From NCBI GenBank assembly GCA_001899255.1, contig MKVX01000006.1, positions 62,001 through 126,000 on the forward strand: DNA of 64,000 bases. The letters run 5' to 3'. The notes beneath the pieces were generated by a model. The model did not search any database. It was given only the letters and a program-made list of their open reading frames with translations, and had not been told where the DNA came from. This stretch comes from Rhizobiales bacterium 62-47 (lineage in GTDB: Bacteria > Pseudomonadota > Alphaproteobacteria > Rhizobiales > Xanthobacteraceae). The first letter of the stretch is position 1. Every line of letters begins with the position of its first letter. Positions 4,731 through 37,429 of the stretch are shown here, piece after piece. The position numbers and the translations under genes are program-made.

Positions 4731-4842
4731 CGCGCCGCAGGCGTCGTGGTGAGCTTTGCGTGTTGTCCGGCTACGGTGAAAGCACCGTAGCAATCTAACT
4801 GATTGAGGCCCGCCAAGAGGCCAACGAAACGGGAGACGGTTT

Positions 4843-6717: not shown

Positions 6718-6725
6718 GACCAACT

Positions 6726-6808: not shown

Positions 6809-6832
6809 GAAAACAAGTGAGAAAGGCAGTCC

Positions 6833-18479: not shown

Positions 18480-18896
18480 CTATGTCTTCTTCACGGCGCG
18501 AAACGTGGCGTTGGCGCGGGCGATCACTTCGCCATCGGCGGTGACGACGCATTGCACGAAGCAAATCGTGCTGCCGGTCTTCAGCACTTCGCTGTCGATC
18601 TGCAGCCACTGTCCGATTTTGGCGCTGCCGATGTAATCGACCGACAGGTTGACTGTGACCAGCGAAACCGTGCCGCCGAGCTTGTGACCGCAACTGTGGC
18701 CCATCGCCTTGTCGGCGAGCGCGGCGATTAGGCCGCCGTGGATCAGACCGCGCGCATTGGTATGCGGTTCCGCCAGGCGCAGGCCGAAGATCACGGCGTC
18801 GGCGGTCTGCTTCCAGTACAGCGGCTCCCACGGATCGGTGAGCGGACTGCGGCGCTGGTTGGGGCCGAAGCCGGGTGGAATGTTTGTATCGTTCAT
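18480..18896 (-). CDS. PaaI-type hotdog thioesterase
   Basis: A 138-residue hotdog-fold acyl-CoA thioesterase. The catalytic-region motif is ARGLIHGGLIAALADKAMGH, followed by VTVNLSVDYIG and the C-terminal GEVIARANATFR. I start at ATG 18896 because the longer form (from 18938) would run into the -35 box of the opposite tarP promoter. The gene is divergent from tarP, and the shared operator at 18955-18973 could control it together with the transporter. It may release CoA from accumulated phenylpropanoyl-CoA; the substrate is inference. Confidence 0.85.
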   Translation of the reverse strand: MNDTNIPPGFGPNQRRSPLTDPWEPLYWKQTADAVIFGLRLAEPHTNARGLIHGGLIAALADKAMGHSCGHKLGGTVSLVTVNLSVDYIGSAKIGQWLQIDSEVLKTGSTICFVQCVVTADGEVIARANATFRAVKKT

Positions 18897-18931: not shown

Positions 18932-18961
18932 TTGACACCGCGAGTTCTGCCAGATGATTAT
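18932..18961 (+). promoter_or_regulatory. Promoter candidate for tarPQM
   Basis: TTGACA (18932-18937) and GATTAT (18956-18961) are separated by 18 bp and read toward tarP. The -10 hexamer lies inside the inverted repeat at 18955-18973, so a bound repressor would block polymerase. The message would have a leader of about 160 nt. Confidence 0.5.
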
Positions 18962-18973
18962 ATCACATAATCA
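18955..18973. promoter_or_regulatory. Operator-like inverted repeat, site 1 of 3 (candidate CouR site)
   Basis: TGATTATatcacATAATCA: perfect 7-bp arms with a 5-bp spacer. The same pattern recurs at 23180-23198 (before couA) and 32337-32353 (before couR). It overlaps the tarP -10 box. Confidence 0.6.
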
Positions 18974-19132
18974 AATTTCGGCGGGGGGAAACCGAATGAT
19001 TGCGATCTCAACGCGATGCGATGCTTGCGTCAGCGCCAGCGGAGACGGCTTGCAATCGCGGACTCATTATATAACAAGTTAAGCAATAACATCGGGCAGG
19101 CAAACCTGCGCGTATCCACAGGGAGGACGTTC

Positions 19133-20167
19133 ATGAACAAAACCATTATGGCGATGCTGGTCGCCGCGAGCGCGACGACGGCCCTCACGGCTGCTGTCAC
19201 AGCTGCCTCGGCGCAGGACAAGACCGTCAATCTGAAAGTTTCGTTGTGGGTGCCGCCGGCGCATCCGCTGGTGCCGGCGACCATCGCCTGGGCCAAGGAT
19301 ATCGAGCAGGCCTCGGGCGGCAGCATCAAGCTGACGGTGTTCCCCTCGCAGCAGCTCGGCAAGGCGTTCGACCACTACGACATGGCGCGCGACGGTATCG
19401 CCGACATCACTTACGTCAATCCGGGTTATCAGCCGGGACGCTTCCCGATCGCCGCGGCGGGGCAGCTTCCGTTTGTGTTCAGCGACGGCAAGAAGGGCAC
19501 GCTGGCGCTCAACGAGTGGTATCACAAGTATGCACCGACCGAGATGAAGGACACCAAGTTGTGCTTCGCCTTCATCCACGATCCCGGCGCGCTGTTCGGC
19601 AAGAAGAAGGTTCTGGTGCCGGAAGATCTCAAGGGCCTGAAGGTCCGCCCGGCGCAATCGACCATCGGTGAAATGGTCAAGATGTTCGGCGGCACCAATG
19701 TGCAGGCTTCTGCGCCGGAAGCGCGCGACGCCATCGAGCGCGGCGTCGCCGATGAAATCACGTTCCCGTGGGGATCGATGTTCCTGTTCGGCATCGAGAA
19801 GGCCATCAAGTACGCGATGGACGTGCCGCTCTACACCACGGTGTTCACCTACAACATGAATCTCAAGAGCTACAACGCGATGTCTCCTGCGCAGAAGAAG
19901 ATCATCGACGATCACTGCACGCCGGAATGGGCCTCGAAGGTGACCGATCCGTGGAGCGAGTTCGAGTTCAACGGTCGCGCCAAGATGAAGGCGTTGGCCG
20001 ACCACGAGGTCTACACCCTGACGCCGGAACAGCTCGCGCAGTGGAAGGCTGCCGCGAAGCCGCTGCAGGACAGTTGGGCCGCCGACGTCAAGAAAGCCGG
20101 CGGCGATCCGGCCGCGATCGAGGCCGATCTGCAGGCCGCGATCAAGAAGTACAACGCGGGGCTGTGA
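19133..20167 (+). CDS. tarP: TRAP transporter substrate-binding protein for hydroxycinnamates (TarP-like)
   Basis: A 344-residue DctP-family periplasmic binding protein. Residues 1-27 are a signal peptide (cleavage after TAASA). The mature part shows the conserved LKVRPAQST arginine region and the RGVADEITFPWG segment that line the carboxylate pocket. GGGAGG ahead of ATG 19133 fixes the start. Gene order tarP-tarQ-tarM-UPF0311-couA-couB matches the R. palustris locus whose TarP binds p-coumarate, ferulate, caffeate and cinnamate. I infer the same substrates from context, not from residues. Confidence 0.88.
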   Translation: MNKTIMAMLVAASATTALTAAVTAASAQDKTVNLKVSLWVPPAHPLVPATIAWAKDIEQASGGSIKLTVFPSQQLGKAFDHYDMARDGIADITYVNPGYQPGRFPIAAAGQLPFVFSDGKKGTLALNEWYHKYAPTEMKDTKLCFAFIHDPGALFGKKKVLVPEDLKGLKVRPAQSTIGEMVKMFGGTNVQASAPEARDAIERGVADEITFPWGSMFLFGIEKAIKYAMDVPLYTTVFTYNMNLKSYNAMSPAQKKIIDDHCTPEWASKVTDPWSEFEFNGRAKMKALADHEVYTLTPEQLAQWKAAAKPLQDSWAADVKKAGGDPAAIEADLQAAIKKYNAGL

Positions 20168-20190
20168 CCGCGGCGCGCCTTCCATAGGAC

Positions 20191-20314
20191 GTCATGCCCG
20201 GCCTCGTGCCGGGCATCCACGCCTTCCTTCAACAGACGAAAACAAGACGTGGATGGTCGGGACCATAGGCGAGCGAAGCGACGCCGTTCCTCGAACGGCG
20301 ATGCCGGCCATCAC
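20191..20314. repeat. Intergenic palindromic repeat, family R5
   Basis: GTCATGCCCGGC with the local hairpin CCCGGCCTCGTGCCGGG, then ATCCACG and ACGTGGATGGTCGG, ending in GATGCCGGCCATCACGG. A second copy is at 22865-22945. It separates tarP from tarQM and could hold the binding-protein message at a higher level. Confidence 0.7.
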
Positions 20315-20346
20315 GGAAGCCACAAACCGGCATTCGGCAGGAAATC

Positions 20347-20910
20347 ATGAGCGCTGATCCCGAAGTCACTCCCGATGGCGCGTTGCGGCCGGCGATGACG
20401 CCGCCGACGAACTACATGGACAAGTTCATCGACTCGATCGAATGGGTCGCGGCCTTCTTCGTCGGCATCGTCGCGTTGAATACGTTCATCGCGGTGTTCA
20501 TGCGCAAGTTCTTCGCGGTGACGATTCCGGATTACTACAACATCGGTCAGTTCCTGCTCGGCATCCTGATCTTCTGGGGCATCGCGGCGACCAGCTATCG
20601 CGGCACTCACATCACCGTCGATCTGGTCTGGGCCAACGCCTCGCCGAAGTATCAGCGCTGGATCGACGTGTTCGCCACGCTGGTACTGCTGTTCGTGGTG
20701 ACGGTGCAGACCTACACGCTGCTCGACAAGGTCATCACCACGCGCGAGGACCATGTGCTGACCATGGATCTGCAATTGCCGATCTGGCCGTTCTATGCGG
20801 TGGCGTGGGTCGGCGACGTCTCCGCGGTGCTGCTGATCGCGATCCGAACCTGGCGGCTGGTGTTTCATCCTGAGCTGTTGCACGAGCCCAAGATCAAGGT
20901 GGCGGAGTAA
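20347..20910 (+). CDS. tarQ: TRAP transporter small membrane subunit (DctQ type)
   Basis: A 187-residue DctQ protein with four predicted membrane helices (about residues 32-52, 62-85, 100-122 and 140-165). Family features are GIVALNTFIAVFMRKF, YNIGQFLLGILIFWGIA and SYRGTHITVDLVW. It pairs with the large DctM subunit to form the transporter body in the inner membrane. It lies 179 bp after tarP, with a palindromic repeat in between, and 6 bp before tarM. The assignment to aromatic uptake rests on synteny with the known TarPQM system. Confidence 0.88.
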   Translation: MSADPEVTPDGALRPAMTPPTNYMDKFIDSIEWVAAFFVGIVALNTFIAVFMRKFFAVTIPDYYNIGQFLLGILIFWGIAATSYRGTHITVDLVWANASPKYQRWIDVFATLVLLFVVTVQTYTLLDKVITTREDHVLTMDLQLPIWPFYAVAWVGDVSAVLLIAIRTWRLVFHPELLHEPKIKVAE

Positions 20911-20916
20911 GCGGCG

Positions 20917-22221
20917 ATGAGCAATGAAGCAGTCGCCGTCATCGGATTCGTCAGCCTGTTCGCGATGATGCTGTTGCGCGTGCCGGTCGGCATGGCGATG
21001 GGCCTCGTCGGCGTCACCGGCTTCGGCTATCTCACCGGCATGGAGCCCGCGCTGAAACTGGTGGCGCAAACCGTGATGCGCACCGTCACCGACTATTCGT
21101 TCGGCGTGATCCCGATGTTCCTGCTGATGGGCGCGTTCGTGTCGGTGTCCGGCATCAGCCGCGAACTGTTCCGCGCCGCCAACACCTTCGTCGGGCACTG
21201 GAAGGGCGGCCTCGGCATCGCGACGATCGGCGCCTGCGGCGGCTTCGCGGCGATCTCAGGATCGTCGGTGGCGACCGCCGCGACGTTCTCGGCAGTGGCG
21301 TATCCGGAAATGCGCCGCTTCGGCTATCCGCAATCGTTTTCCGCCGGCGTCATCGCCGTCGGCGGCACCCTCGGCGCCATGCTGCCGCCGTCCACCGTGC
21401 TGGTGGTGTACGGCATCATCACCCAGCAGGACATCGGCAAGCTGTTCATTGCTGGCGTGGTGCCCGGCCTGCTGGCGATCACCATGCACATGATCACCAT
21501 CGGCATCATCGGCGTGGCGCGGCCGGGCTTCCTGCCCGCCGGTCCGCGTAGCCAATGGAAAGACCGCGTGGCGGCGCTGCGCGATGTGTGGTCGCCGCTG
21601 GCGCTGTTCCTGTTCGTCATCGGCGGGCTGTACGGCGGCTTCTTCATTCCGACCGAGGCCGGCGCGGTGGGCGCGGTGGGCGCCTTCATCATCGGCGTCA
21701 TGCGTCGCAAGCTGTCGCGCGACGGCATCCTCGAGGCGCTGTTGCAGGCCACGCGCACCACGGCAGCCGTCTTCACCGTGCTGATCGGCGCGCTGTGCTT
21801 CGGTTACTTCCTCACCATCACCCAGACGCCGCAGAACGTCACCGAGTTTCTCACCGGGCTCGGCATCGGCCGCTACGGCGTGCTGGCGCTGATCCTGCTG
21901 ATGTATCTGGTGCTTGGCTGTCTGATGGACGCCATGGCGATGATTATTCTCACCGTGCCGATCGTGTTTCCGGTGGTGACGGCACTCGGCTTCGATCCGA
22001 TCTGGTTCGGCATCATCATCGTCATGACGGTCGAACTGGGCTTGATCCACCCGCCGGTCGGCATGAACGTGTTCGTCATCAAGAGCGTCATCAAGGACGT
22101 CAGCATGTCGACGATCTTCGCCGGGGTGCTGCCGTTCGTGGCGACCGATCTGGTTCGCCTGGTGCTGCTGATCGCGTTCCCGGTAATCGCCACCTGGTTG
22201 CCGATGCATATGATGGGATAG
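20917..22221 (+). CDS. tarM: TRAP transporter large permease subunit (DctM type)
   Basis: A 434-residue polytopic membrane protein with about 11-12 helices. DctM signatures include FAAISGSSVATAATFSAVAYPEM, GTLGAMLPPSTVLVVYG, GGFFIPTEAGAVGAVGAF and ELGLIHPPVGMNVFVI. It carries the substrate together with sodium using the gradient. It starts 6 bp after tarQ, so the two are translationally linked. The UPF0311 gene begins 4 bp after its stop, making this a four-gene unit. Confidence 0.9.
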   Translation: MSNEAVAVIGFVSLFAMMLLRVPVGMAMGLVGVTGFGYLTGMEPALKLVAQTVMRTVTDYSFGVIPMFLLMGAFVSVSGISRELFRAANTFVGHWKGGLGIATIGACGGFAAISGSSVATAATFSAVAYPEMRRFGYPQSFSAGVIAVGGTLGAMLPPSTVLVVYGIITQQDIGKLFIAGVVPGLLAITMHMITIGIIGVARPGFLPAGPRSQWKDRVAALRDVWSPLALFLFVIGGLYGGFFIPTEAGAVGAVGAFIIGVMRRKLSRDGILEALLQATRTTAAVFTVLIGALCFGYFLTITQTPQNVTEFLTGLGIGRYGVLALILLMYLVLGCLMDAMAMIILTVPIVFPVVTALGFDPIWFGIIIVMTVELGLIHPPVGMNVFVIKSVIKDVSMSTIFAGVLPFVATDLVRLVLLIAFPVIATWLPMHMMG

Positions 22222-22225
22222 TCCG

Positions 22226-22687
22226 ATGACACCGGTTCTGGCCACCAAATACGTTTTCACCATCACCGTGCGGATTGGCGACGTCACCTCCGCCGGCGAT
22301 ATCGGTCATGGCACGCGGCGCATCATCCCGATCCTCGGCGGCGAAGTGCGTGGCGAGGGCGTCAACGGCAAGGTCTGTCCGTTTGGCGCCGACTTCCAGA
22401 TCATCCGGCCCGACGAACTGATCGAGCTCGAAGCCAAGTATGCCCTGGAGCTGGACGACGGCGCCGTTGTCTACGTCGCCAACACCGGTTTGCGTTTCGG
22501 GCCGAAAGACCTGCTCGAAAAGTTGAAGCGCAACGAGCCGGTCGATCCGGCGCTGATCTATTTCCGCACCACGCCGAAGTTCGAGACCGGCAGCCCGAAA
22601 TACCGCTGGCTGATGCAGCATTTGTTCGTCGCCTCCGCTGCGCGCCACGCCGACCGTGTCGTCATCGACGTGCATCAGGTGCTGTAG
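22226..22687 (+). CDS. UPF0311 (DUF3237) family protein
   Basis: A 153-residue beta-rich protein of the DUF3237 family, with GGEVRGEGVNGKVCPFGADFQ, ALELDDGAVVYVANTG and FRTTPKFETGSPKYRWL. The biochemical role is unknown. In R. palustris the orthologous gene (I recall it as UPF0311 protein RPA1785) lies at the same place between the TRAP transporter and couA, so the position is conserved. It may have a small-ligand barrel function in phenylpropanoid metabolism; that is inference. No signal peptide is visible. Confidence 0.88.
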   Translation: MTPVLATKYVFTITVRIGDVTSAGDIGHGTRRIIPILGGEVRGEGVNGKVCPFGADFQIIRPDELIELEAKYALELDDGAVVYVANTGLRFGPKDLLEKLKRNEPVDPALIYFRTTPKFETGSPKYRWLMQHLFVASAARHADRVVIDVHQVL

Positions 22688-22690
22688 GCC

Positions 22691-22712
22691 AACCCTCCCC
22701 TTGAGGGGGAGG
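22691..22712. repeat. Hairpin related to repeat R1
   Basis: AACCCTCCCC and GGGGGAGG flank a TTGA loop right after the UPF0311 stop. It may act as a weak terminator for the tar operon. Confidence 0.5.
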
Positions 22713-22769
22713 ATGAATTGGTTCGATGTCTTTCAAAAGTTTCGCGAGACGGCTCGCCGCAACGGAAGA

Positions 22770-22852
22770 CTCATTCTGAGGAGCGACCACTTGGTCGCGT
22801 CTCGAAGGATGATGCCCCTGGCCTCATGGTTCGAGACGCAGGGGTGCGCCCC
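22770..22852. repeat. Intergenic palindromic repeat, family R3
   Basis: CTCATTCTGAGGAGCGACC, CGTCTCGAAGGATGATG and CCTCATGGTTCGAGACG, as in the copy at 10704-10794. Confidence 0.7.
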
Positions 22853-22864
22853 GCTCAGACATTT

Positions 22865-22945
22865 GTCATGCCCGGGCTTCTGCGTCTTTACTGCGCTTGG
22901 GCAAGACAAAAGACGTGGATGGCCGGATTAAATCCGGCCATGACG
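22865..22945. repeat. Intergenic palindromic repeat, family R5
   Basis: GTCATGCCCGGGC at the left and GGCCGGATTAAATCCGGCC then ATGACGG at the right, with ACGTGGATGG inside. Pairs with the copy at 20191-20314. Confidence 0.7.
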
Positions 22946-23013
22946 GCGCAAGCGGTGGAGGTTCGCTGCTTCAGCGCAGGCGCAAAACTCTGACAAATTT
23001 TGTAACACCCCCT

Positions 23014-23129
23014 CGTCATTGCGAGGAGCACTCGGATCGGCGCTCCGCGCTGTCCGAGGACAGGCTCTACGACGAGCAATCCAGTTCTACCTTGGGGCGC
23101 TGGATTGCTTCGCTCCGCTCGCAATGACG
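23014..23129. repeat. Intergenic palindromic repeat, family R2
   Basis: CGTCATTGCGAGGAGC at the left, GCTCGCAATGACGG at the right, AGCAATCCAG and CTGGATTGCTTCG inside. Longer centre than the copies at 6726 and 46935. Confidence 0.75.
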
Positions 23130-23179
23130 GGGGCCGTGCGCGTTGAACCGTTCCCGGCGGCCATTGACTCTGTCCGATT

Positions 23180-23198
23180 TCGTTATAAAACATAATTA
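23180..23198. promoter_or_regulatory. Operator-like inverted repeat, site 2 of 3, before couA
   Basis: TCGTTATaaaacATAATTA: same arm and spacer geometry as the site at 18955-18973, with two arm mismatches. A TTGACT hexamer lies at 23164-23169. It ends 23 bp before the couA start, where a bound repressor would block transcription. Confidence 0.55.
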
Positions 23199-23221
23199 TT
23201 CTACCAAGGACATAATGACCC

Positions 23222-24025
23222 ATGGGAAACGCCGCCTCCGCCGCCACCGTCTCTGCGTCCGCGCTCCTTGCGACGGAACTGGTCGGCTCCGTCTTCACCA
23301 TCGGCCTCAATCGTCCCGCCAAGCGCAATGCGCTGAACGACGACATCATGGAAGAGATTCAGCACTGCTTCACGCACCTGCCCGAGGGCATCGGCGCGGT
23401 GGTGTTGCACGGCATCGGCGCGCACTTTTCCGCGGGCCTCGATCTGTCCGAACTGCGCGAGCGTGACGCCACCGAGGGCTTGCGGCATTCGCAGATGTGG
23501 CATCGGGTGTTCGACAAGATCCAGTATTGCCGGGTGCCGGTGATCGCGGCGCTGAAGGGCGCGGTGATCGGCGGCGGGCTTGAACTGGCCTGCGCCACGC
23601 ATATTCGCGTCGCCGAGCCGAGCACCTATTTCGCGCTGCCCGAAGGCCAGCGCGGCATTTTCGTTGGCGGTGGCGGTTCGGTGCGGCTGCCGCGCCTGAT
23701 CGGCGTCGCCCGCATGGCGGACATGATGCTGACCGGGCGCGTCTATTCCGCCAGCGAGGGCGTCAATTACGGCTTCACGCAGTACCTCACGGAAGAGGGC
23801 GGGGCCTTCGCCAAGGCGATGGAATTGGCGAGCCAAGTCGCCAGCAATGCGCCGCTGACCAACTTCGCGGTGTTGCAAGCGCTGCCGATGATCGCCGAAG
23901 CCAATCCGCAGACAGGACTGTTGATGGAATCGTTGATGGCAACCGTCGCGCAGAGTGATAACGAGGCGAAGTCGCGCATCCGCGCGTTTCTCGACCACAA
24001 GACCGCGAAGGTCCGTCCCACCTGA
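23222..24025 (+). CDS. couA: p-Coumaroyl-CoA hydratase/lyase (enoyl-CoA hydratase family)
   Basis: A 267-residue crotonase-fold enzyme. In the couAB pathway the hydroxycinnamoyl-CoA side chain is hydrated and cleaved to a hydroxybenzaldehyde and acetyl-CoA. Oxyanion segments are HFSAGLDLSEL and GAVIGGGLELACA. Unlike the crotonases at 3857 and 11621 it keeps both classical glutamates, Glu121 (GGGLELA) and Glu141 (LPEGQRG). It starts 23 bp after the shared operator and is followed 18 bp later by couB. Symbol from synteny and family; whether it performs lyase chemistry or only hydration is not decidable by eye. Confidence 0.87.
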   Translation: MGNAASAATVSASALLATELVGSVFTIGLNRPAKRNALNDDIMEEIQHCFTHLPEGIGAVVLHGIGAHFSAGLDLSELRERDATEGLRHSQMWHRVFDKIQYCRVPVIAALKGAVIGGGLELACATHIRVAEPSTYFALPEGQRGIFVGGGGSVRLPRLIGVARMADMMLTGRVYSASEGVNYGFTQYLTEEGGAFAKAMELASQVASNAPLTNFAVLQALPMIAEANPQTGLLMESLMATVAQSDNEAKSRIRAFLDHKTAKVRPT

Positions 24026-24043
24026 TTGAAGGCAAGGCGCGTC

Positions 24044-25927
24044 ATGACGTCGACGGCAAGCAGAAGCGACACCACGGTTCGGACGGACCAGTACCCGTTA
24101 CGGCCGATTTCGTTCGGCCGCCCCGCCGTCACCGTCGAGCGCCGCGCCGACGGCACCATTTACCTCCGTCCCAGGACAGCGCTCGGCGATTATCCGCAGC
24201 GGCTGACCGACCGGTTGCATCACTGGGCTGCGACCGCGCCGGATCGCGTGTTCATGGCCGAGCGCGATGCCATCGGCGGCTGGCGCAAGCTGACCTACGC
24301 GCAACTGCTGTCGGCCAGCCGGCACATCGCTTCGGCGCTGCTGTCGCGTGGACTGTCGGCGGAACGGCCGCTGATGATCCTGTCCGGCAATTCGATCGAT
24401 CACGCACTGCTGGCGTTCGGTGCGCTCTATGCCGGCGTGCCTTTCTGCCCGGTATCGCCGGCCTATTCGCTGGTCTCGAAGGACTACGGCAAGCTGGCCT
24501 TCGTCATCAAGCTGCTGACGCCGGGGCTGGTGTTTGCGGACGACGCCACGTTGTTCGCCGACGCCTTGCGCGCCAACGTGCCGGACGATGTCGAGATCGC
24601 CGCGACGCGCGGCAGCGTGCCGGGCCGCAGCGTGACGCCGTTGGCGGATCTGCTGGCGACGCCGGAGCATGCGCAATTGGATGCGACGCATGACGCCATC
24701 GGCCCGGACACCATTGCCAAGTTCCTGCTCACTTCGGGCTCGACCGGCAATCCCAAGGCCGTCATCAACACGCAGCGCATGATCTGCGCCAATCAGGTGA
24801 TGCTGCGCGACACGCTGGCCTTCCTCAAGGATGAGCCGCCGGTGATCGTCGACTGGCTGCCGTGGAATCACACCTTCGGCGGCAATCACAACATCGGGCT
24901 GACGCTGTTCAACGGCGGCTCGATGTATCTCGACGCCGGCAAGCCGACGCCCGGCGGCATCGAACAGACCGTGCGCAACCTGCGCGAGATTTCCCCGACG
25001 GTGTATTTCAACGTGCCGAAAGGCTACGAGTCGCTGCTGCCGTATTTGCGCGACGACGCAGCGTTACGGCAAAAATTCTTCGGCCGCTTGCACGCGATGT
25101 TCTTCAGCGGCGCGGCGCTGTCGCCCTATGTCTGGAACAGCCTCGATGAGATCGCAGTTGCGGTGACCGGCAAGCGAGTGCCGATGCTCACCGGACTGGG
25201 CGCCACCGAGACGGCGCCGTTCTTCATGTCGGTGACGCCGGAAACCAGCCGCTCCGGCCACGTCGGCCTGCCGGTGCTTGGCAACGACGCCAAGCTGGTG
25301 CCGAACAACGGCAAGATCGAAGTGCGCGCCAAGGGGCCGAACGTTACGCCGGGCTACTGGCGGCAACCCGAACTGACCGCCAAGGCGTTCGACGACGAGG
25401 GCTTCTATATTTTCGGCGACGCCATCAAGCCCGCCGACGCCAACAACTTCGACGCGGGCTTCGATTTCGATGGCCGCATTTCCGAGGATTTCAAGCTGGG
25501 CAGCGGCACCTGGGTCAGCGTCGGCCCATTGCGCGCGCGCTTCGTCGCGGCCTGTGCGCCGCTGGTGCGCGACGTGGTGATCGCCGGAATCAACCGCGAC
25601 GAACTGTCGGCGCTGGTGATGCTCGATCTCGACGGTTGCCGGGTCGTCAATCCGGCGCTGCCGCCCGACGATCTCGCAGCGGCGGCGTCGGATCCCAAGA
25701 TCCGGCAGGCCTTCGCCGAACGGCTGGCGCGTTTCGCTGCTGCCGCGACCGGCTCGTCGAACCGAATCACGCGCGCGATACTGATCGACACGCCATTGTC
25801 GATCGATCGCGGCGAAGTCACCGACAAGGGATCGATCAACCAGCGCGCGGTGCTCGAGCATCGCGCCGATGTGATCGAGGGACTTTATGCATCGCCACCT
25901 GCTCCGCAGGTGATTTCAGTCAGCTAG
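24044..25927 (+). CDS. couB: Hydroxycinnamate-CoA ligase (feruloyl-CoA synthase type)
   Basis: A 627-residue ANL ligase that activates p-coumarate, ferulate or similar acids to CoA thioesters with ATP. The characteristic N-terminal [17 protein letters not shown] block leads into the P-loop [45 protein letters not shown] and the C-terminal lysine motif [13 protein letters not shown] choose ATG 24044 over the in-frame TTG at 24026 because ATG is preceded by AAGGCAAGGCG. It is co-transcribed with couA, and its product is the likely inducer read by the CouR repressor. A paralogue sits at 4843. Confidence 0.9.
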
Positions 25928-25962
25928 GCCGCGATGCTCGCGGCGTATCACAGGAGACCATC

Positions 25963-26724
25963 ATGCAATTGAAGGGACAGGCCGCGATCGTCACTGGCGG
26001 CGCCTCGGGACTCGGTGCGGCGACGGCACGGCGGCTGGCGGCGCAGGGCGCCAAGGTCGCCATCGCCGACCTCAACACCAAGCTGGCGGAAGAACTCGCC
26101 AAGGAGATCGGTGGCGTCGCGGTGATGTGCGACGTATCCGACCCGGTGTCGGGCGAGGCTGCCATCGTTGCCGCCGCCAAGGCGCACGGTCCGGCGCGCG
26201 TGCTGGTCAATTGCGCCGGCATCGGCGTCGCCAAGCGCGTCGTCGGCCGCGAGGGTCCGCATCCGCTGGCGGATTTCGACAAGGTGATCCGCATTAACCT
26301 GATCGGTTCGTTCAACATGCTGCGGCTCGCCGCTACCGAGATGTCGAAGCTCGAACCGCTCGACGGTGGCGAGCGCGGCGTCATCATCAACACAGCGTCG
26401 GTCGCGGCCTATGACGGCCAGATCGGGCAGGCGGCGTATTCGGCATCGAAGGGCGGCATCGTCGGCATGACCCTGCCGATCGCGCGCGAACTGGCGCAGT
26501 TCGGCATTCGCGTGCTGACCATCGCGCCCGGCCTGTTCCTGACGCCGTTGCTCGGCGCGTTGCCGCAAGCGGCGCAGGATAGCCTCGCCACCGCGATCCC
26601 GTTCCCGCATCGGCTCGGTTCGCCGGACGAATACGCGTCGCTGGCGATGCACATGATCGACAATCCGTATCTTAACGGCGAAGTGGTGCGGCTCGACGCC
26701 TCGCTGCGCATGGCGCCGAAGTAA
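25963..26724 (+). CDS. SDR-family 3-hydroxyacyl-CoA dehydrogenase (HSD10-like)
   Basis: A 253-residue short-chain dehydrogenase with the [12 protein letters not shown] cofactor motif, [21 protein letters not shown] and catalytic YSASK. It parallels the SDR at 2921 in nearly every motif. AGGAGA before ATG 25963 sets the start, 35 bp after couB. A 3-hydroxyacyl-CoA dehydrogenase next to couAB is unexpected if the side chain is removed only by retro-aldol cleavage. It would fit oxidation of the hydrated CoA intermediate to a 3-keto thioester. The substrate remains inferred. Confidence 0.9.
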
Positions 26725-26746
26725 GTCCAACTTCTCGGGAGCCGGC

Positions 26747-27166
26747 ATGTTCGTTCATCGGCGCGACGTACAGATCCAGTGGGGCGATTGCGACCCCGCC
26801 AACATCGTCTATTATCCGCGCTATTTCGAGATGTTCGACGACAGCACCTCGATCATGTTCGAAGCTGCCGGCTTCTCCAAGCAGGATATCGTCCATCGCT
26901 ATGGCCTCGTCGGCATCCCGATGGTGGATACGCGGGCGAAATTTCATATTCCCTCGACGCACGGCGACTGGATCGCCATCGAGAGCCGGGTCGAGGCGTG
27001 GCGGCGCTCCAGCTTCGACGTGCGGCATAATGTCTTCAAGGGCGAGGCGCTCGCGATCGAAGCGTTCGAAACCCGCGTGCTGGTGGGCCGCGATCCCAAC
27101 AATACCGACAAACTGAAATCCGCGCCGGTCCCGGCGGAAATCATCGCGCGCTTCGAGCGGGGCTGA
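26747..27166 (+). CDS. 4-Hydroxybenzoyl-CoA thioesterase family protein
   Basis: A 139-residue hotdog thioesterase. The N-terminal IQWGDCDPANIVYYPRYFEM is the signature of the Pseudomonas CBS3-type 4-hydroxybenzoyl-CoA thioesterase, with the catalytic aspartate in GDCDPA. It hydrolyses aroyl-CoA to the free acid and CoA. It lies 22 bp after the SDR, so the operon runs couA-couB-SDR-thioesterase. Together with the SDR this suggests the pathway can yield an aroyl-CoA and release 4-hydroxybenzoate. That product assignment is inference. Confidence 0.88.
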   Translation: MFVHRRDVQIQWGDCDPANIVYYPRYFEMFDDSTSIMFEAAGFSKQDIVHRYGLVGIPMVDTRAKFHIPSTHGDWIAIESRVEAWRRSSFDVRHNVFKGEALAIEAFETRVLVGRDPNNTDKLKSAPVPAEIIARFERG

Positions 27167-27254
27167 CATTGTCAACGGCACCGCCTAAAGAAGGTGTCGG
27201 ATGAATATCGTGTGAACTGACTTGTCTTCTAGCAACTGCCTTTGGGAGGAATGA

Positions 27255-28409
27255 ATGAAGAAGGTGTCTCTGTTGATGGCTGCGGCCGCGGCGCTTGCAT
27301 TGCCGGGCCTGATGGCGCCGGCGCTGGCGCAAAGCAACGAAATCGTCATCGGCATTTCGGTGACGACGACCGGGCCTGCGGCCGCGCTCGGCATTCCGGA
27401 GCGCAACGCGCTGGAATTCGTCGCCAAGGAAATCGGCGGCGTACCGCTGAAGGTGATCGTGCTCGACGACGGCGGCGATCCGACCGCGGCGACCACCAAC
27501 GCGCGCCGCTTCGTGACGGAATCCAAGGCTGACATCATCATGGGATCGTCGACCACGCCGCCGAGCGTTGCGATGTCGACGGTTGCCAACGAAGCCGGCG
27601 TTCCGCATTTCGGCCTTGCGCCGTTCCCGATCACGCCGGAACGCGCCAAGTGGTCGGTTTCGATGCCGCAGCCGATTCCGATCATGGGCAAGGTGCTCTA
27701 CGAGCACATGAAGAAGAACAACGTGAAGACCGTCGGTTATATCGGCTACTCGGATTCCTACGGCGACCTGTGGTTCAACGACCTCAAGACGCAGGCGGTG
27801 CCGATGGGCATCAACATCGTCGACGAGGAACGTTTCGCGCGCCCGGATACGTCGGTCACCGGTCAGGTGTTGAAGCTGGTGGCGGCCAATCCTGACGCCA
27901 TCCTGGTCGGCGCTTCGGGCACCGCGGCCGCGTTGCCGCAGACCACGCTGCGCGAGCGCGGCTACAAGGGCCTGATCTATCAGACCCACGGCGCCGCCAG
28001 CATGGACTTCATCCGCATCGCCGGAAAGGCCGCTGAAGGCGTGCTGATGGCGTCGGGTCCGGTGATGGATCCGGAAGGGCAGGCCGACAGCGCGCTGACC
28101 AAGAAGCCGGGCCTCGAACTGAACAAGGCCTATGAAGCCAAGTACGGCGTCAACAGCCGCAGCCAGTTCGCCGGTCACTCGTTCGATGCCTTCAAGGTGC
28201 TCGAGCGTGTCGTTCCGGTGGCGCTGAAGAAGGCCAAGCCGGGCACGCCGGAATTCCGTGAGGCAATCCGTCAGGCCTTGCTGACCGAGCGCGATATCGC
28301 GGCGAGCCAGGGCGTCTACAATTTCACCGAGAAGGATCGCTTCGGTCTCGACGATCGTTCGCGCATCATCCTCACGGTGAAGGACGGCAAGTACGTCCAG
28401 GTGAAGTAA
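27255..28409 (+). CDS. couP: ABC transporter substrate-binding protein for phenylpropanoids (CouP-like)
   Basis: A 384-residue periplasmic Leu/Ile/Val-type binding protein. Residues 1-25 are a signal peptide (MKKVSLLMAAAAALALPGL, cleavage after PALAQ region). The mature fold begins NEIVIGISVTTTGPAAALG, with DGGDPTAATTNARR and the GHSFDAF segment near the end. GGGAGGA ahead of ATG 27255 supports the start. It follows the thioesterase by 88 bp on the same strand and ends in a strong terminator. The partner permease/ATPase genes lie downstream on the opposite strand, as in the R. palustris couPSTU locus. Substrate range inferred from synteny. Confidence 0.87.
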   Translation: MKKVSLLMAAAAALALPGLMAPALAQSNEIVIGISVTTTGPAAALGIPERNALEFVAKEIGGVPLKVIVLDDGGDPTAATTNARRFVTESKADIIMGSSTTPPSVAMSTVANEAGVPHFGLAPFPITPERAKWSVSMPQPIPIMGKVLYEHMKKNNVKTVGYIGYSDSYGDLWFNDLKTQAVPMGINIVDEERFARPDTSVTGQVLKLVAANPDAILVGASGTAAALPQTTLRERGYKGLIYQTHGAASMDFIRIAGKAAEGVLMASGPVMDPEGQADSALTKKPGLELNKAYEAKYGVNSRSQFAGHSFDAFKVLERVVPVALKKAKPGTPEFREAIRQALLTERDIAASQGVYNFTEKDRFGLDDRSRIILTVKDGKYVQVK

Positions 28410-28445
28410 GAGCCGACGTCAGCGTCTCGCGACGTTGAAACGATC

Positions 28446-28475
28446 AAGCCGGCCTCTCGTGAGGCCGGCTTTTTT
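28446..28475 (+). terminator. Rho-independent terminator after couP
   Basis: AAGCCGGCCTC and GAGGCCGGCTT form a perfect 11-bp stem with a TCGT loop, followed by six T. It closes the couA-to-couP unit. Confidence 0.85.
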
Positions 28476-28503
28476 CTTTCCTCGTAATGAACGGGGGGAC
28501 GCC

Positions 28504-28662
28504 GTCATCCTGAGGTGCGAGGCGCACTTCCGCGCCGAGCCATAGCAAGTTGGCTTGCCAGCCTGCGTTCTCCCAGTATCCCATCTTGGGCAAACCCAAG
28601 ACGGGTGGCGACGGCGATCCTTCGAGGCTCGCGACGTTCGTCGCTCGCACCTCAGGATGACG
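28504..28662. repeat. Intergenic palindromic repeat, family R3, long form
   Basis: GTCATCCTGAGGTGCGAGG and the matching CTCGCACCTCAGGATGACG ends enclose an extra central stretch (about 28545-28610) not seen in the other copies. It fills the convergent gap between couP and the ATPase gene. Confidence 0.75.
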
Positions 28663-28691
28663 CCATCGCACCAACCCGACTCATTGTGCCT

Positions 28692-29426
28692 TTAAACAGC
28701 GCTCGCGCCGGCGTGCTGGAAGCCGAGATAGCTGGCGACGACGCGCGGGTCGGCCGCGATGTCGGCGGCGGGGCCGTGCAGGATGAAGGCGCCCAGCTCC
28801 ATGACGTAAGCGCGGTCGGCAATCTGCAGTGCCGCCTTGGCGTTCTGCTCGACCAGCAGCACCGAGACGCCTGCCGCACGCAGCGCGCCGATGATCTTGA
28901 AGATATCGGCGACGATCAGCGGCGCGAGGCCGAGGCTCGGCTCGTCAAGCATCAACAACCGCGGTTCACCCATCAGCGCGCGACCCATCGCCAGCATCTG
29001 CTGTTCGCCGCCGGACAGCGTGCCGGCCAGTTGCTGCCGCCGCTCCTTGAGGCGCGGAAACAGCGCGTAGACACGCTCGAAGGATTGCGCGGCGGTCGCC
29101 TTGGCGATGCGGAAGGCGCCGAGCTGCAGGTTGTCCTCGACGCTCATGGTGCCGAACAATTCGCGATGCTCGGGCACAAGCGACAGGCCGGCGGCGACGC
29201 GATCCTCGATATCGAGACCGGCGAGATCCTGGCCGTTGAAGCTGATGCGGCCGTGTTGCGGCAGGATGCCCATAATGGCGTTGAGCAGCGTCGTCTTGCC
29301 AGCACCATTGGCGCCGACGATGGTAACGATCTCGTTGGCCTTGACCTCGAGCGAGACCGAACGCACCGCCTCGACCTTGCCGTAGGAGATCGAGGTATCG
29401 GCAACCGAAAGCAGCGTTGCACTCAT
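28692..29426 (-). CDS. ABC transporter ATP-binding protein, LivF type
   Basis: A 244-residue ATPase of the branched-chain/urea-type (HAAT) ABC family. Walker A is GANGAGKTTLLN, the signature is LSGGEQQMLAMGRAL, Walker B is LLMLDEPSLGLAP, followed by VLLVEQNAKAAL. Its ATG overlaps the stop of the fusion gene upstream by the ATGA arrangement, so both are translationally coupled. With the fusion gene, the LivH-type permease and CouP it completes a phenylpropanoid importer (one of the genes called couS, couT or couU in R. palustris; I cannot assign the letter). Confidence 0.9.
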   Translation of the reverse strand: MSATLLSVADTSISYGKVEAVRSVSLEVKANEIVTIVGANGAGKTTLLNAIMGILPQHGRISFNGQDLAGLDIEDRVAAGLSLVPEHRELFGTMSVEDNLQLGAFRIAKATAAQSFERVYALFPRLKERRQQLAGTLSGGEQQMLAMGRALMGEPRLLMLDEPSLGLAPLIVADIFKIIGALRAAGVSVLLVEQNAKAALQIADRAYVMELGAFILHGPAADIAADPRVVASYLGFQHAGASAV

Positions 29427-31198
29427 GCGGTGGCTCCGAGATAGGCGCGGATCACGTCCGGGTTGCTCTTGATGACGTCGGGCGTGCCCTCGGCGATTTT
29501 GGTCCCGAAATCGAGCACGACGATGCGGTCGGCGAGATCCATGACGAAGCCCATGTCGTGTTCGACCAGCAGCACCGACATGCCGCCGTCGCGCAATTGC
29601 CGCAGCAGCGCCGCGAGTTGCTGTTTCTCCATGTGCCGCAGTCCGGCAGCCGGCTCATCGAGCAGCAGCAGCACCGGATCGACGCACAGCGCGCGCGCGA
29701 TTTCGACGATGCGCTGCTGGCCGAGCGACAGACTGCCGGCCAGTTGATCGATCTGGTCGCTGAGGCCGACGCGGGCAATCTGCCGCGCCGCTTCGGCCAG
29801 CAATCCGGCTTCGTCGGCGCGATCGAGCCGCAGCATGCTGGCGATGGCGCCGGCATGGCCGCGCAGATGCGCGCCCATCGCGACGTTTTCCAGCACCGTC
29901 ATGTCGGGGATCAGCTTGACGTGCTGGAAGGTGCGGGCGACGCCAAGCTTGGCGATCTGTTGCGGCGTCGCGCCGTCGATATCGGTGCCGCACACTGTGA
30001 TGCGTCCCGCCGACGATTCCAGCACGCGGGTGACGAGATTGAAGGTGGTGCTCTTGCCGGCGCCGTTGGGACCGATCAGCGCCACGATCTCCCTGGTGCC
30101 GACGCTGAAGCTGACGTCGTTGACGGCGATGACGCCGCCGAATTGCTTGCGTGCGCCTTCCAGCTTCAGCAGCACCTCGGATGTCAGCGGTGCGGCAGCG
30201 CGCGGCGCGAGCTCGGCCGATGTATCGGTGCGCGTGGCGCTGCGCTTGAACGGCAGCAGGTTGGTGAGCCACGGCCACATGCCGGAGGGCGCGAAGTGCA
30301 GTAGCGCCACCAGCACAATGCCGAACACGATGATCTCGAGCTGGCCCTGTCCGCCGAAGATCAACGGCAGATAGCTTTGCAACACTTCCTTGAGGATCAC
30401 CACGACCGCCGCGCCGAGCACGCCGCCCCAGACATAACCGGCGCCGCCGACCACGGCGATGAACAGATATTCGATGCTGGCGTGAGCGCCAAACGGCGTC
30501 GGGTTGGCGGCGCGTTGCAGATGCGCGTAGAGCCAGCCGGACAATCCGGCCAGCACCGCGGCATAGATGAACACCAGGAGCTTGGCGCGCGCCGTCTGCA
30601 CGCCGAACGCTTCGGCGGCGACATGCCCGCGCCGCAGCGCGCGGATGGCGCGGCCGGTACGCGAATCCAGCAGGTTGGTGGTGAGCAGCGCGGCAAGGAT
30701 CACGGCGATCCAGATGACGTAATAGATCGTGCCCGGATCGAGCATGCGCAGGCTGCCGATCTGCAGCGGCGGAATCGCCGAGATGCCGTCGTTGCGGCCG
30801 AGGAATTCCAGCTTGCTGAAGAGGTAGAACAGCCCGAGGCCCCAGGCCAGGGTGCCGAGCGGCAGGTAGTGGCCGGACAGCCGCACTGTGACGATGCCGA
30901 GCACGACAGCGGCGAGGCCGCTGACCAAGAGCGACAGCGGCAGCGTCAGCCACGGAGACAGGCCGTAGTGGGTCGACAGCACGGCGGTGGTGTAGGCGCC
31001 GAAGCCGCAAAACGCCGCCTGGCCGAACGAGGTGAGGCCGCCGACGCCGGTCAGCAGCACCAGCCCCATGGCGACCAAAGCGGCAAGGCCGATATTGTCG
31101 AGCAGCACGATCCAGAATGGCGGGATGTTGGGGATCAGCGGCAGCACCGCCATGATCACCGCGAAAATGACGACCGGCAAACGTTGCGACATCGCCAT
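29423..31198 (-). CDS. LivM-LivG fusion: ABC permease plus ATP-binding protein
   Basis: A 591-residue fusion. The N-terminal 310 residues are a LivM-type permease with about nine helices (GLVLLTGVGGLTSFGQAAF, GRAIRALRRG.VAAEAFGV, YVWGGVLGAA). After a linker, residues 340-591 form a LivG ATPase with Walker A GPNGAGKSTTFNL, signature LSLGQQRIVEIARA and Walker B LLLLDEPAAGL. The two parts are separate genes in most such operons (compare 37430 and 40054 here). ATG 31198 overlaps the upstream permease stop (TGATG). It is part of the CouP importer. Confidence 0.9.
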   Translation of the reverse strand: MAMSQRLPVVIFAVIMAVLPLIPNIPPFWIVLLDNIGLAALVAMGLVLLTGVGGLTSFGQAAFCGFGAYTTAVLSTHYGLSPWLTLPLSLLVSGLAAVVLGIVTVRLSGHYLPLGTLAWGLGLFYLFSKLEFLGRNDGISAIPPLQIGSLRMLDPGTIYYVIWIAVILAALLTTNLLDSRTGRAIRALRRGHVAAEAFGVQTARAKLLVFIYAAVLAGLSGWLYAHLQRAANPTPFGAHASIEYLFIAVVGGAGYVWGGVLGAAVVVILKEVLQSYLPLIFGGQGQLEIIVFGIVLVALLHFAPSGMWPWLTNLLPFKRSATRTDTSAELAPRAAAPLTSEVLLKLEGARKQFGGVIAVNDVSFSVGTREIVALIGPNGAGKSTTFNLVTRVLESSAGRITVCGTDIDGATPQQIAKLGVARTFQHVKLIPDMTVLENVAMGAHLRGHAGAIASMLRLDRADEAGLLAEAARQIARVGLSDQIDQLAGSLSLGQQRIVEIARALCVDPVLLLLDEPAAGLRHMEKQQLAALLRQLRDGGMSVLLVEHDMGFVMDLADRIVVLDFGTKIAEGTPDVIKSNPDVIRAYLGATA

Positions 31199-32283
31199 CA
31201 ATCCTTCTCTTCTTCGACTTCAGGTGCGGCGAGCGAGCGCAGCACCAGCACCGGAATGATCAGGGTGAAGACGATGACCTCCTTATAGTTGCTGGCGTAG
31301 AACGACGAGAACGCTTCGACGATGCCGACGACCAGCGCCGCCACGGCGGTGAGCGGATAACTGATGAGGCCGCCGATGATGGCCGCGACGAAACCCTTGA
31401 GGCCGACGATGAATCCGGTGTCGTAATAGAGCGTCGTGATCGGCACGATCAGGATGCCGGAGATGGCGCCGATCACCGACGCCAGCAGGAAGGCGATCTG
31501 TCCCGACAGCGAGGTGCGGATGCCGACAAGGCGCGCCCCGAGCCGGTTCACCGCCGTGGCCCGCAGCGCCTTGCCATACAGCGTGAAATCGAAGAACAGC
31601 CACAGCGCGATAATCAGCGCGGCCGTGATGCCGTAGACGACGAGGCTTTGCCCCGAGATGCGCAGATCGCCGATGGTGATCGCGGCGTCGGAAATCGTCG
31701 GTCCGCGCAGGCCTTCGGCGCCGAAGAACACCAGGCCGAAACCCTGCATGGCGAGATGACATCCGACCGAGGCGATCAGCAGCACCAGCACCGAAGTGTG
31801 CGCGATCGGCTGGAATGCGATGCGGTAAAGGAACAGGCCGATGGCGGCGACGATCAGCAGCGACAGCGTGATGTTGACCGGGATGTTGTTCTGCCGTCCC
31901 GCCAGCCACATCGTCAGCAGCAGCACCACCACCGGAAAGACGATATTGACGGTGAAGGCCCGTAGCAGCGCGCGTGCATGAAGCGATTTGCGCGCGGCGA
32001 ACACATCGAAGCCGAAGGCGACGAGGCCCATCACCACGGCAAGGCGGGCCGTGCCCGGCACCTGCCCGGCGGCGAGCGTCGCGTAGCTCAATGCGCCATA
32101 GGTAATGAATTCGCCTTGCGGGATCAGGATCACGCGCGTGACCGCGAACACCAGCACGAGTGCCAGGCCCAGCAGTGCGTAGATCGCGCCGTTGGTGATG
32201 CCGTCCTGGATCAGGAACAGCAGGATTGTCGTATTCAAGCTCCGCCCCCCTTCGGCGTCGGCGCGCCCCCGTTTCGCCGCCAT
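31198..32283 (-). CDS. ABC transporter permease, LivH type
   Basis: A 361-residue permease from ATG 32283; TTG 32238, after a G-rich site, would give 345. LivH features are [51 protein letters not shown] and [22 protein letters not shown], in about nine helices. An unusual insert of extra helices lies between residues 70 and 130 compared with short LivH proteins. It is the first gene of the minus-strand importer unit, divergent from couR, with the shared operator at 32337-32353 in between. It works with the fusion protein, the LivF-type ATPase and CouP. Confidence 0.87.
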
Positions 32284-32336
32284 AATTCCATACCGACGGT
32301 TGAATTCCGCCGGTCGTATTTGATATGATCCATAAC

Positions 32337-32353
32337 GATTATCGACTATAATC
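32337..32353. promoter_or_regulatory. Operator-like inverted repeat, site 3 of 3, between the importer and couR
   Basis: GATTATcgactATAATC: perfect 6-bp arms, 5-bp spacer, the same consensus as sites 1 and 2. A perfect TATAAT hexamer (32347-32352) reading toward couR lies inside it. Position fits autoregulation and control of the divergent importer. Confidence 0.6.
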
Positions 32354-35902: not shown

Positions 35903-36102
35903 TTCAATTCTCCCTGTGCTTTGGTTGACTGTGTTGTTGCTTTTTTTGATTGCAGGCTCTGCGGCCCTGGGTGTCATTGAATACCATTTGCCGATTGTCA
36001 GCAAGGCAGGGCCGTGCGGCAGGAACCGCGGGACAGCGATTGCGCTACGGGCACGAAGCGGATGGCGCGTTGCGATGGCGGCCTGAATGGCGGCAGCAAA
36101 AA

Positions 36103-36129
36103 GCCCCCTGCGGCATTGCCGCGGGGGGC
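36103..36129 (-). terminator. Terminator or attenuator between the two binding-protein genes
   Basis: GCCCCCTGCGGC and GCCGCGGGGGGC form a 12-bp stem (one G-T pair) with an ATT loop. The minus strand continues with TTTTTGCTGCC. It follows the 36185 gene, so the 34676 gene needs readthrough or its own promoter in 35903-36102. Confidence 0.75.
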
Positions 36130-36184
36130 GAGTGAGATCGTTCAGTGGCGCTCGTTCGGTGGCGCCATTGTTATGCGGGGCGGC

Positions 36185-37420: not shown

Positions 37421-37429
37421 CATTTCTCC

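Follow-up and report, generated by a model that had tools for sequence, protein, structure and literature searches.

The window, a stretch of 64,000 nucleotides from Rhizobiales bacterium 62-47, carries genes with which a soil bacterium would import and degrade a lignin compound, and it raises the question of whether the inverted repeats lying before its transport, catabolic and regulatory genes are sites of one repressor. A preliminary description made from the letters alone had proposed that three such repeats place a TRAP importer, couAB, an ABC importer and the MarR-family gene couR under the control of CouR. Our analyses make it very probable that the repeats are CouR operators, through which the cou cluster would be repressed in common with, most likely, two operons elsewhere in the genome, those of an amidohydrolase and of pcaHG.

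The repressor and its gene neighborhood

A phmmer comparison of the couR product with the R. palustris CouR structure 6c28 gave a match over residues 1–173 (E 5.6e-71), and the stretch ILRPNFVAML, which we take to be the recognition helix of the MarR protein, is identical between the two; the next-best match to CouR in the source genome has 27% identity. These data bear out the earlier assignment of the MarR gene as CouR. Nearby lie couAB and the genes of both importers, ABC and TRAP (Table 1), a layout that recurs in L418, an R. palustris-like locus whose couP-like protein matches the solved chain 3ukj.

Table 1. Genes of the cou cluster and predicted operator boxes in the window.
Feature	Position	Strand	Remarks
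Hotdog thioesterase divergent from tarP	18480..18896	-	Box 1 starts 58 bp before gene
Operator box 1 (predicted), TGATTAT-N5-ATAATCA	18955..18973	.	Between tarP and divergent thioesterase; read directly as TGATTATATCACATAATCA
tarP, TRAP substrate-binding protein	19133..20167	+	NF037995 TRAP_S1 above cut-off
tarQ, small TRAP membrane subunit	20347..20910	+	Orthologue in L418
tarM, large TRAP membrane subunit	20917..22221	+	Orthologue in L418
DUF3237 protein	22226..22687	+	Between tarM and couA also in L418 and L430
Operator box 2 (predicted), TCGTTAT-N5-ATAATTA	23180..23198	.	End 23 bp 5' of couA start codon; read directly as TCGTTATAAAACATAATTA
couA, enoyl-CoA hydratase family	23222..24025	+	Family match
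couB, acyl-CoA ligase	24044..25927	+	AMP-binding; NF009232 just below cut-off; start codon chosen by analyst
Short-chain dehydrogenase	25963..26724	+	Nearest solved chains mostly named 3-hydroxyacyl-CoA dehydrogenase
4HBT-type thioesterase	26747..27166	+	Family match
couP, ABC importer substrate-binding protein	27255..28409	+	Weak family match; 87% identical to L418 protein
Second ATPase, ABC importer	28692..29426	-	Named by likeness and context; orthologue in L418
Fused permease/ATPase, ABC importer	29423..31201	-	Named by likeness and context; orthologue in L418
Permease of ABC importer, leading gene of operon divergent from couR	31198..32283	-	Orthologue in L418
Second, tandem couR box (predicted), GATAT-N5-ATAAC	32322..32336	.	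Matches core at 9/10 letters; offset from box 3, 16 bp
Operator box 3 (predicted), main couR box, GATTAT-N5-ATAATC	32337..32353	.	Between divergent couR and importer operon; read directly as GATTATCGACTATAATC
couR, MarR-family repressor	32417..32938	+	Orthologue of R. palustris CouR (PDB 6c28)

Three inverted repeats and their consensus

The three inverted repeats are all present, and their letters and positions agree with the preliminary description. That they match one another holds under the core RTTATN5ATAAY but not under the literal motif GATTATN5ATAATC, from which the couA site differs by three mismatches, a likeness that is not significant given that the window holds 5 matches at up to three mismatches versus 6.8 expected. 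Because the window count of the literal motif at this tolerance does not exceed chance, the consensus was rebuilt, and the core was settled on after inspection of the sites of relatives. The consensus of the predicted operators is thus RTTATN5ATAAY, which had been missed before. It has exactly three matches in the window, namely boxes 1–3, and 100 dinucleotide shuffles of the window gave a mean of 0.00 matches, with 0 of 100 reaching three.

Allowing one mismatch adds a fourth and last match, which adjoins box 3. The couR region has two predicted boxes, the second likewise overlooked at first, and this second box lies at the same 16-bp offset in 96 of the 97 couR regions having a perfect main box; at couA, tarP, the amidohydrolase gene and pcaH, no second box was found within −50 to +60 of the perfect-core regions. 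As had been proposed, box 1 overlaps the predicted −10 element of the tarP promoter (TTGACA at 18932, N18, GATTAT), and the predicted −10 of couR (TATGAT, 32324–32329) falls inside the second couR box, the promoter predictions being weak (4 found versus 2.7 expected). A terminator scan was uninformative (12 found versus 9.4 expected).

Conservation upstream of orthologous genes

A perfect core box occupies 98 of the 100 couR upstream regions read in the family, all 66 of those before couA and 25 of the 31 before tarP, counts that include the source genome itself. The other tarP regions keep 9 of the 10 letters in five cases and lack the box in one, and the couA box has a median position of −41, with one match at −296. 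The motif is therefore conserved before the orthologues of all three genes, which argues for a shared inverted-repeat operator at the target promoters and, together with the orthology of CouR, supports the earlier reading of the boxes as sites of a single regulator. Perfect cores were also found in 16 of 30 amidohydrolase and 11 of 30 pcaH upstream regions. None of the pooled 262 regions before five control genes located within operons had a core box (couB 0/71, dehydrogenase 0/52, second thioesterase 0/52, couP 0/58, DUF3237 0/29). The reversed pattern was perfect in 3 of 100 couR regions and in none elsewhere except at the importer gene sharing the couR region; that region is AT-rich, and its reversed pattern scores 9 or 10 of 10 in 34/100, which counts against our reading. 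In the perfect-core regions, both half-sites and the 5-base gap are fixed and most flank letters variable.

Upstream stretches shorter than 200 or 250 bases, duplicate stretches, and alignments beginning past residue 40 or covering less than half were removed before counting, and the identity floors for orthologues were 60% for couR, 68% for couA, 74% for tarP, 80% for the amidohydrolase, 75% for pcaH and 60% for the others. The flank and second-box analyses used the perfect-core regions alone (couR 97, couA 70, tarP 25, amidohydrolase 16, pcaH 11). Since relatives are not independent, the counts overstate the evidence. In addition, the couA upstream was read in 13 genomes with no CouR match at E 1e-40, and six of them carry the core palindrome, at −70 to −78, one adjoining a TetR gene. 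The core alone is therefore no proof of CouR, and these six palindromes were excluded from the CouR sites.

The suggestion that box 1 may cover the thioesterase gene divergent from tarP receives some support. Four loci from other genera have pobA on the far side of the tarP box, and in two of the four loci read (L418 and L430) pobA, which is transcribed away from tarP across the intervening box, is followed by a relative of this thioesterase; the core is perfect upstream of 4 of 11 orthologues of the thioesterase gene.

Sites elsewhere in the genome and genus

The source genome (4,916,030 bp in 23 contigs) contains three perfect copies of the literal motif: sites 1 and 3, and a single other on contig 19 that precedes the amidohydrolase gene. 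Across eight genomes of the genus, source included, the 14 perfect copies fall by coordinates at couR (8), tarP (4) and the amidohydrolase gene (2), and the reversed literal pattern has 0 copies, a lenient control because CTA/TAG is rare in genomes of this sort. Perfect core sites number 41 in these eight genomes, versus 19 for the reversed core. By coordinates, 33 of the 41 precede five target genes (couR 8, couA 8, amidohydrolase 8, tarP 6, pcaH 3). Random placement of the motif, or a lack of conservation before orthologous tarP, couA and couR, had been named as refuting the proposal, which survived this test. The ten genomes tabulated have 3 to 7 core sites each, mostly before the genes of one pathway. 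Genome G012 has exactly three (couR, couA and tarP) and no reversed site; genome G056 has five, three of them at targets, and seven reversed sites, which counts against our reading.

Eight core sites lie away from the targets. The site on contig 18 (796722), with a further TRAP operon on one side and a CoA-transferase-like gene on the other, was set aside as chance or local, the TRAP protein being present in seven of the eight genus genomes, source included, and the core site absent beside its gene in the other six. The site on contig 11 (367897) was rejected as it lies inside a coding call, and six further sites (two in G002, three in G005, one in G006) were left as chance, three being inside coding calls and three intergenic. 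One of these intergenic sites (L427) lies ~60–75 bp before a transporter-binding-protein-like gene.

Distal boxes and alternative explanations

The CouR network seems to include unlinked genes, and CouR most likely also controls the amidohydrolase and pcaHG operons. The amidohydrolase gene is on contig 19, unlinked to the cou cluster on contig 6, and occurs in 49 of 53 genomes with CouR and 12 of 145 without. Its product matches PF04909 (E 7.5e-60), with no family found in PHROGs or NCBIfam, and six amidohydrolase sequences have invariant HxH, HxG and GSD positions, presumably the metal motif of the amidohydrolase superfamily. The enzyme is proposed to perform the last side-chain step, as CouO does in Rhodococcus. 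Of the 49 CouR genomes, 33 retain its box, which occurs in 8 of 10 genera, and 16 lack it (g27, 11/11; g6, 2/2; g43, 2/3; g26, 1/3). None of the 12 CouR-less genomes with the gene has the box (0/9 tabulated and 0/3 in L277–L279); couA, couB and the amidohydrolase gene form runs in L278 and L279, the latter gene lies beside couA at a contig end in L277, and the other nine have no couA match near it. The table of these boxes covers 58 of 61 genomes; the stretches retrieved for G120, G044 and G135, read separately, contain no core site, and G004 was scored as lacking the gene, its contig ending 60 residues into it with a box in front. The pcaHG box is present in 12 of 40 CouR genomes, source included, and missing in 28; among 46 genomes without CouR, one (G059) has a pcaH core site, at −128, which counts against our reading.

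An alternative that shares our account of the three window sites is that CouR acts in the cou cluster only and the two distal boxes serve another regulator with a similar site, such as a nearby second MarR protein. A different MarR gene does lie close to the amidohydrolase gene in the source genome (L003, 1974–2429), and a MarR relative with 31% identity to CouR, kept as a rival regulator, is ~4.5 kb from the pcaHG box, followed by genes resembling efflux genes by eye. Furthermore, 11 pcaHG boxes share a flank ending in ATAATGA that is absent from the couR and amidohydrolase boxes. However, in L063, L280 and L281 the box is present with no relative of CouR or of the second MarR protein beside the amidohydrolase gene, the distal boxes co-occur with CouR and hardly occur without it, and the amidohydrolase box was found by the motif of the preliminary description, before the consensus was widened. 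We consider this alternative unlikely.

It is very improbable that the palindromes are mainly conserved −10 elements, symmetrical by chance: TATAAT- or TTATAA-like letters do occur within the boxes, two of which are at predicted −10 elements, but a −10 element would account poorly for two fixed half-sites and a fixed gap amid variable flanks, or for so few sites per genome gathered mostly at one pathway. Chance AT-rich repeats with no function, a reading favored by the chance-level count of the literal motif at three mismatches and by the 8 of 41 genus-wide sites that have no shared target, are a negligible prospect given conservation across ten genera and zero counts at control genes.

Proposed mechanism

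On the reading of the boxes as CouR operators, we infer that a CouR dimer would sit on each RTTAT-N5-ATAAY palindrome, over or beside the −10 region, and block transcription, its own included. As p-coumarate enters, CouB would convert it to p-coumaroyl-CoA, which would pull CouR off the DNA and let all target operons open together. These would be tarPQM; couAB with the dehydrogenase, thioesterase and couP genes; the divergent couR/importer pair with its two boxes; and, most likely, at a distance, the amidohydrolase gene and pcaHG, for ring cleavage of protocatechuate. Repression by CouR and p-coumaroyl-CoA as its ligand in R. palustris are taken from the literature. With boxes at the amidohydrolase gene and pcaHG and facing pobA, the network may therefore run from uptake to ring cleavage.

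We rate at about even a broader proposal in two parts: that a single repressor sensing an acyl-CoA governs all of the p-coumarate route, from uptake to ring cleavage, through scattered operons that enter or quit the network as they gain or lose a single 15-base box, and that the unlinked amidohydrolase under such a box performs CouO-type deacetylation to 4-hydroxybenzoate, so that the route would not run only via 4-hydroxybenzaldehyde, the R. palustris group included.

Significance and comparison with known systems

A cluster-level regulon was already known in R. palustris, and our analyses add a precise operator rule and distant members. Among the matches listed, mostly titles and the starts of abstracts, no paper gave the operator or placed pobA, pcaH or the amidohydrolase under CouR, and the three operator strings had no match in the text of the papers searched. 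If CouR controls the amidohydrolase, the p-coumarate route of R. palustris becomes directly testable. That route is contested: excerpts of PMC3610893 and PMC12366328 describe a non-beta-oxidative (aldehyde) route, and one of PMC10458429 files R. palustris under beta-oxidative degradation. The presence or absence of a box at two unlinked operons also offers a good small system for studying regulon growth, and both lignin-conversion strains and sensors of p-coumaroyl-CoA can profit from the operators and targets.

The closest counterpart is the CouR regulon of R. palustris, which has an orthologous repressor and the same linked targets, couAB, the CouPSTU importer and the TarPQM importer. An excerpt of PMC3610893, citing two other papers, states that TRAP and ABC genes up-regulated by p-coumarate are under CouR control there. 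The placing of both uptake systems in one regulon, as in the preliminary description, is therefore already published for R. palustris. Our cluster differs in having the 3-hydroxyacyl-CoA-dehydrogenase-like gene, which L418 lacks, and the pcaHG and unlinked amidohydrolase boxes are reported here. As far as the consulted portions of the papers go, CouR of Rhodococcus jostii RHA1 is likewise a MarR repressor released by p-coumaroyl-CoA, with an inverted repeat having a 5-bp gap and a pathway ending in the amidohydrolase CouO (PMC4737184). However, its box is cATTGA-N5-TCAATg, its cou genes are in one cluster, and its identity to R. palustris CouR is given as about 25% (PMC4737184) or 36% (PMC9594313). 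HcaR of Agrobacterium fabrum, a MarR protein that represses the four beta-oxidative hydroxycinnamate genes along with its own, differs in having clustered targets, and the portion consulted names no importers or ring-cleavage genes (PMC7797058). FerC of Sphingobium SYK-6 is also described, in similarly partial text, as a MarR repressor released by hydroxycinnamoyl-CoA (PMC5487221), but it controls a ferulate operon and serves a non-beta-oxidative route (PMC10458429).

CouR and its proposed binding boxes

The couR gene encodes a 173-residue MarR protein that aligns over its full length with R. palustris CouR (structure 6c28), and the stretch at the expected place of the recognition helix is identical in the two; its next-closest relative within the source genome has 27% identity. 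Direct reading of the sequence confirmed the coordinates of the three inverted repeats (boxes) of the preliminary description, at tarP, couA and couR. The literal motif proposed there, GATTATN5ATAATC, does not accommodate the couA site; at a tolerance wide enough to include that site it gave five matches in the window versus 6.8 expected. A core, RTTATN5ATAAY (10 scored letters), was derived from relatives' upstream regions and matched the window three times, at the three boxes, and never in 100 shuffles. Since the core was picked after the sites had been seen, we place weight on comparisons across genomes and on results from the literal motif.

Coordinates of boxes, genes and neighboring features
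Feature	Sequence	Positions
tarP box	window	18955-18973
DUF3237 gene	window	22226-22687
Repeat-like stretch 5' of couA	window	23010-23130
couA box	window	23180-23198
couR/importer box	window	32337-32353
couR	window	32417-32938
Two substrate-binding-protein genes	window	34676-37423
O-antigen-ligase-like and amidohydrolase genes	L076 (source genome)	4830-6152 / 6149-7018
Core palindrome by second TRAP operon	L274	5723-5737
Core palindrome by transporter-binding-protein-like gene	L427 (genome G002)	2035-2049
Palindrome 5' of couA	L412	9175-9189
Palindrome 5' of couA	L413	8660-8674

The stretch upstream of the couA box has inverted arms, CGTCATTGCGAGGAGC ... GCTCGCAATGACGG, and resembles a dispersed palindromic element. 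The DUF3237 gene is flanked by tarM and couA, a placement shared by loci L418 and L430, and the two adjacent, similar substrate-binding-protein genes downstream of couR are apparently a tandem duplication.

Conservation and specificity of the boxes

Within 350 bp upstream of orthologues, which are related by descent and are not independent trials, a perfect core was present at 98 of 100 couR genes, all 66 couA genes (one with its first match at -296) and 25 of 31 tarP genes, with 9/10 letters in five more. The expectation that the boxes would be conserved upstream of these three genes, and not randomly placed, was borne out. Counts were 16/30 for the amidohydrolase, 11/30 for pcaH and 4/11 for the divergent thioesterase. 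No perfect core was found upstream of operon-internal control genes (couB, 0/71; dehydrogenase, 0/52; second thioesterase, 0/52; couP, 0/58; DUF3237, 0/29). In the couR regions, which are AT-rich, the reversed control pattern was perfect in 3/100 and had 9/10 letters in 31 more.

The genome-wide scan proposed earlier, run on the 4.9-Mb source genome, returned three perfect copies of the literal motif: the tarP site, the couR site and one on contig 19 ending 48 bp 5' of a gene for a 289-residue amidohydrolase, the last detected prior to any widening of the consensus. Eight genomes of the genus, the source included, hold 14 perfect copies (couR in all eight genomes, tarP in four, amidohydrolase in two). 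The core has 41 sites in these genomes versus 19 for the reversed pattern; 33 were assigned by coordinates to couR (8), couA (8), the amidohydrolase (8, counting G004, whose contig stops 60 residues into the gene), tarP (6) and pcaH (3), and the other eight fall elsewhere. The relative G012 has three core sites (couR, couA and tarP) and none reversed; G056, of the same genus, has five, three of them at those genes, and seven reversed.

The L274 palindrome is a perfect core match. On one side of it is a CoA-transferase-like gene, on the other a second TRAP operon with an acyl-CoA-ligase-like gene after it; in six congeners, this second TRAP gene has no adjoining core site. The L427 palindrome, shortly 5' of its gene, was left as chance.

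A second box at couR

A second box, GATAT-N5-ATAAC, lies 16 bp from the main box in 96 of the 97 couR regions whose main box is perfect; no such companion was seen within -50 to +60 of the boxes at couA (70), tarP (25), the amidohydrolase (16) or pcaH (11). The main couR box has one letter changed (TATAAG) in loci L418, L051 and L057. The predicted couR promoter (TTGAAT, N18, TATGAT; 9/12) has its -10 element inside the second box and the main box just past the likely start; promoter predictions of this kind are weak (four found versus 2.7 expected). Two CouR dimers could block both divergent promoters of the couR/importer region.

Boxes outside the cluster

From 198 genomes drawn across the family, upstream regions were examined for the amidohydrolase in 61 genomes and for pcaH in 86. 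The amidohydrolase box and the couR box, where on one contig, are about 137 kb (congener G001) and 128 kb (congener G006) apart. Among genomes with CouR, the amidohydrolase box was present in 33 of 49 and in 8 of 10 genera, at positions -40 to -75, and was missing in genera g27 (11/11 genomes), g6 (2/2), g43 (2/3) and g26 (1/3); among genomes without CouR it was found in none of nine, nor in three examined separately. The gene itself is present in 49/53 genomes with CouR versus 12/145 without, and in three of those 12 (L277, L278 and L279) it adjoins couA. L278 and L279 share the run couA-couB-amidohydrolase, followed in L279 by a dehydrogenase and preceded in L278 by a 41%-identical MarR gene; the sequence of L277 stops after couA.

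In the source genome, a downstream gene that by eye is O-antigen-ligase-like has a 4-base overlap with the amidohydrolase gene and may be transcribed from the same putative CouR-type promoter. A similar-looking gene in L063 lies in opposite orientation.

The pcaH box was present in 12 of 40 genomes with CouR (3/8 in the source genus, 9/10 in g25, 0/22 in the remainder) and in 1 of 46 without. In the sets of 30 upstream regions each described above, core scores at the amidohydrolase and pcaH were all-or-none, either 10/10 letters or between 6 and 8, the pattern expected if sites are gained or lost. In four hand-picked loci (L418, L429, L430 and L431), tarP and a divergent pobA (4-hydroxybenzoate 3-monooxygenase) flank the tarP box; pobA was named from NCBIfam in the first three and from 74% identity to the L429 protein in L431. 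In L418 and L430, pobA is followed by a gene related to the divergent thioesterase of the window. In the window, pobA is absent beside the tarP box and the thioesterase faces it, as might be expected of a pobA-thioesterase operon that has shrunk.

Side-chain route

The window cluster encodes a ligase, a hydratase, a relative of 3-hydroxyacyl-CoA dehydrogenases and a thioesterase; the dehydrogenase is present in 49 of 51 loci with couA, couB and couP, some being the same genome twice. Loci L412 and L413, whose genera gave no CouR match, have a thiolase gene between ligase and dehydrogenase. In Rhodococcus, PMC4737184 assigns the final side-chain step, yielding the aromatic acid, to an amidohydrolase, CouO. 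The simplest reading is that beta-oxidation would be ended by the thiolase in L412 and L413 and by the amidohydrolase in the source genome. That reading is less clear for G112, whose CouP matches solved chain 3ukj at 791 bits, whose CouR matches 6c28 and which has the amidohydrolase box (L417), but whose cou cluster (L418) lacks the dehydrogenase. For R. palustris, three papers disagree: PMC3610893 describes a non-beta-oxidation route, PMC12366328 has RPA1786 making 4-hydroxybenzaldehyde and RPA1206 oxidising it, and PMC10458429 describes beta-oxidative degradation.

L412 and L413 also have a TTGTTAT-N5-ATAACA-type palindrome 5' of couA, with a TetR gene adjoining in L412, which suggests a site of another regulator with a similar palindrome.

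Comparison with the R. palustris regulon

The proposal of a single repressor for transport and catabolism holds as a sequence-based reading, with a CouR orthologue and a box conserved at couR, couA and tarP. CouR occupying the boxes, two of which lie at predicted -10 elements, would block initiation; such repression of couAB is published for R. palustris, according to PMC3610893 and PMC10458429. Basal import would admit p-coumarate, which CouB would convert to p-coumaroyl-CoA, the published ligand. Release of CouR from every box would then open import, side-chain removal and, in the source genome, ring cleavage, until falling thioester levels shut the system again.

PMC3610893 places the up-regulation of both importers, TRAP and ABC, under CouR in R. 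palustris, from which it follows that joint control of import and catabolism is already published for that species. The within-cluster part is a further case of the known CouR regulon. Three features make the system a variant worth testing: the tandem box at couR, the amidohydrolase outside the cluster and the connection to pcaHG.
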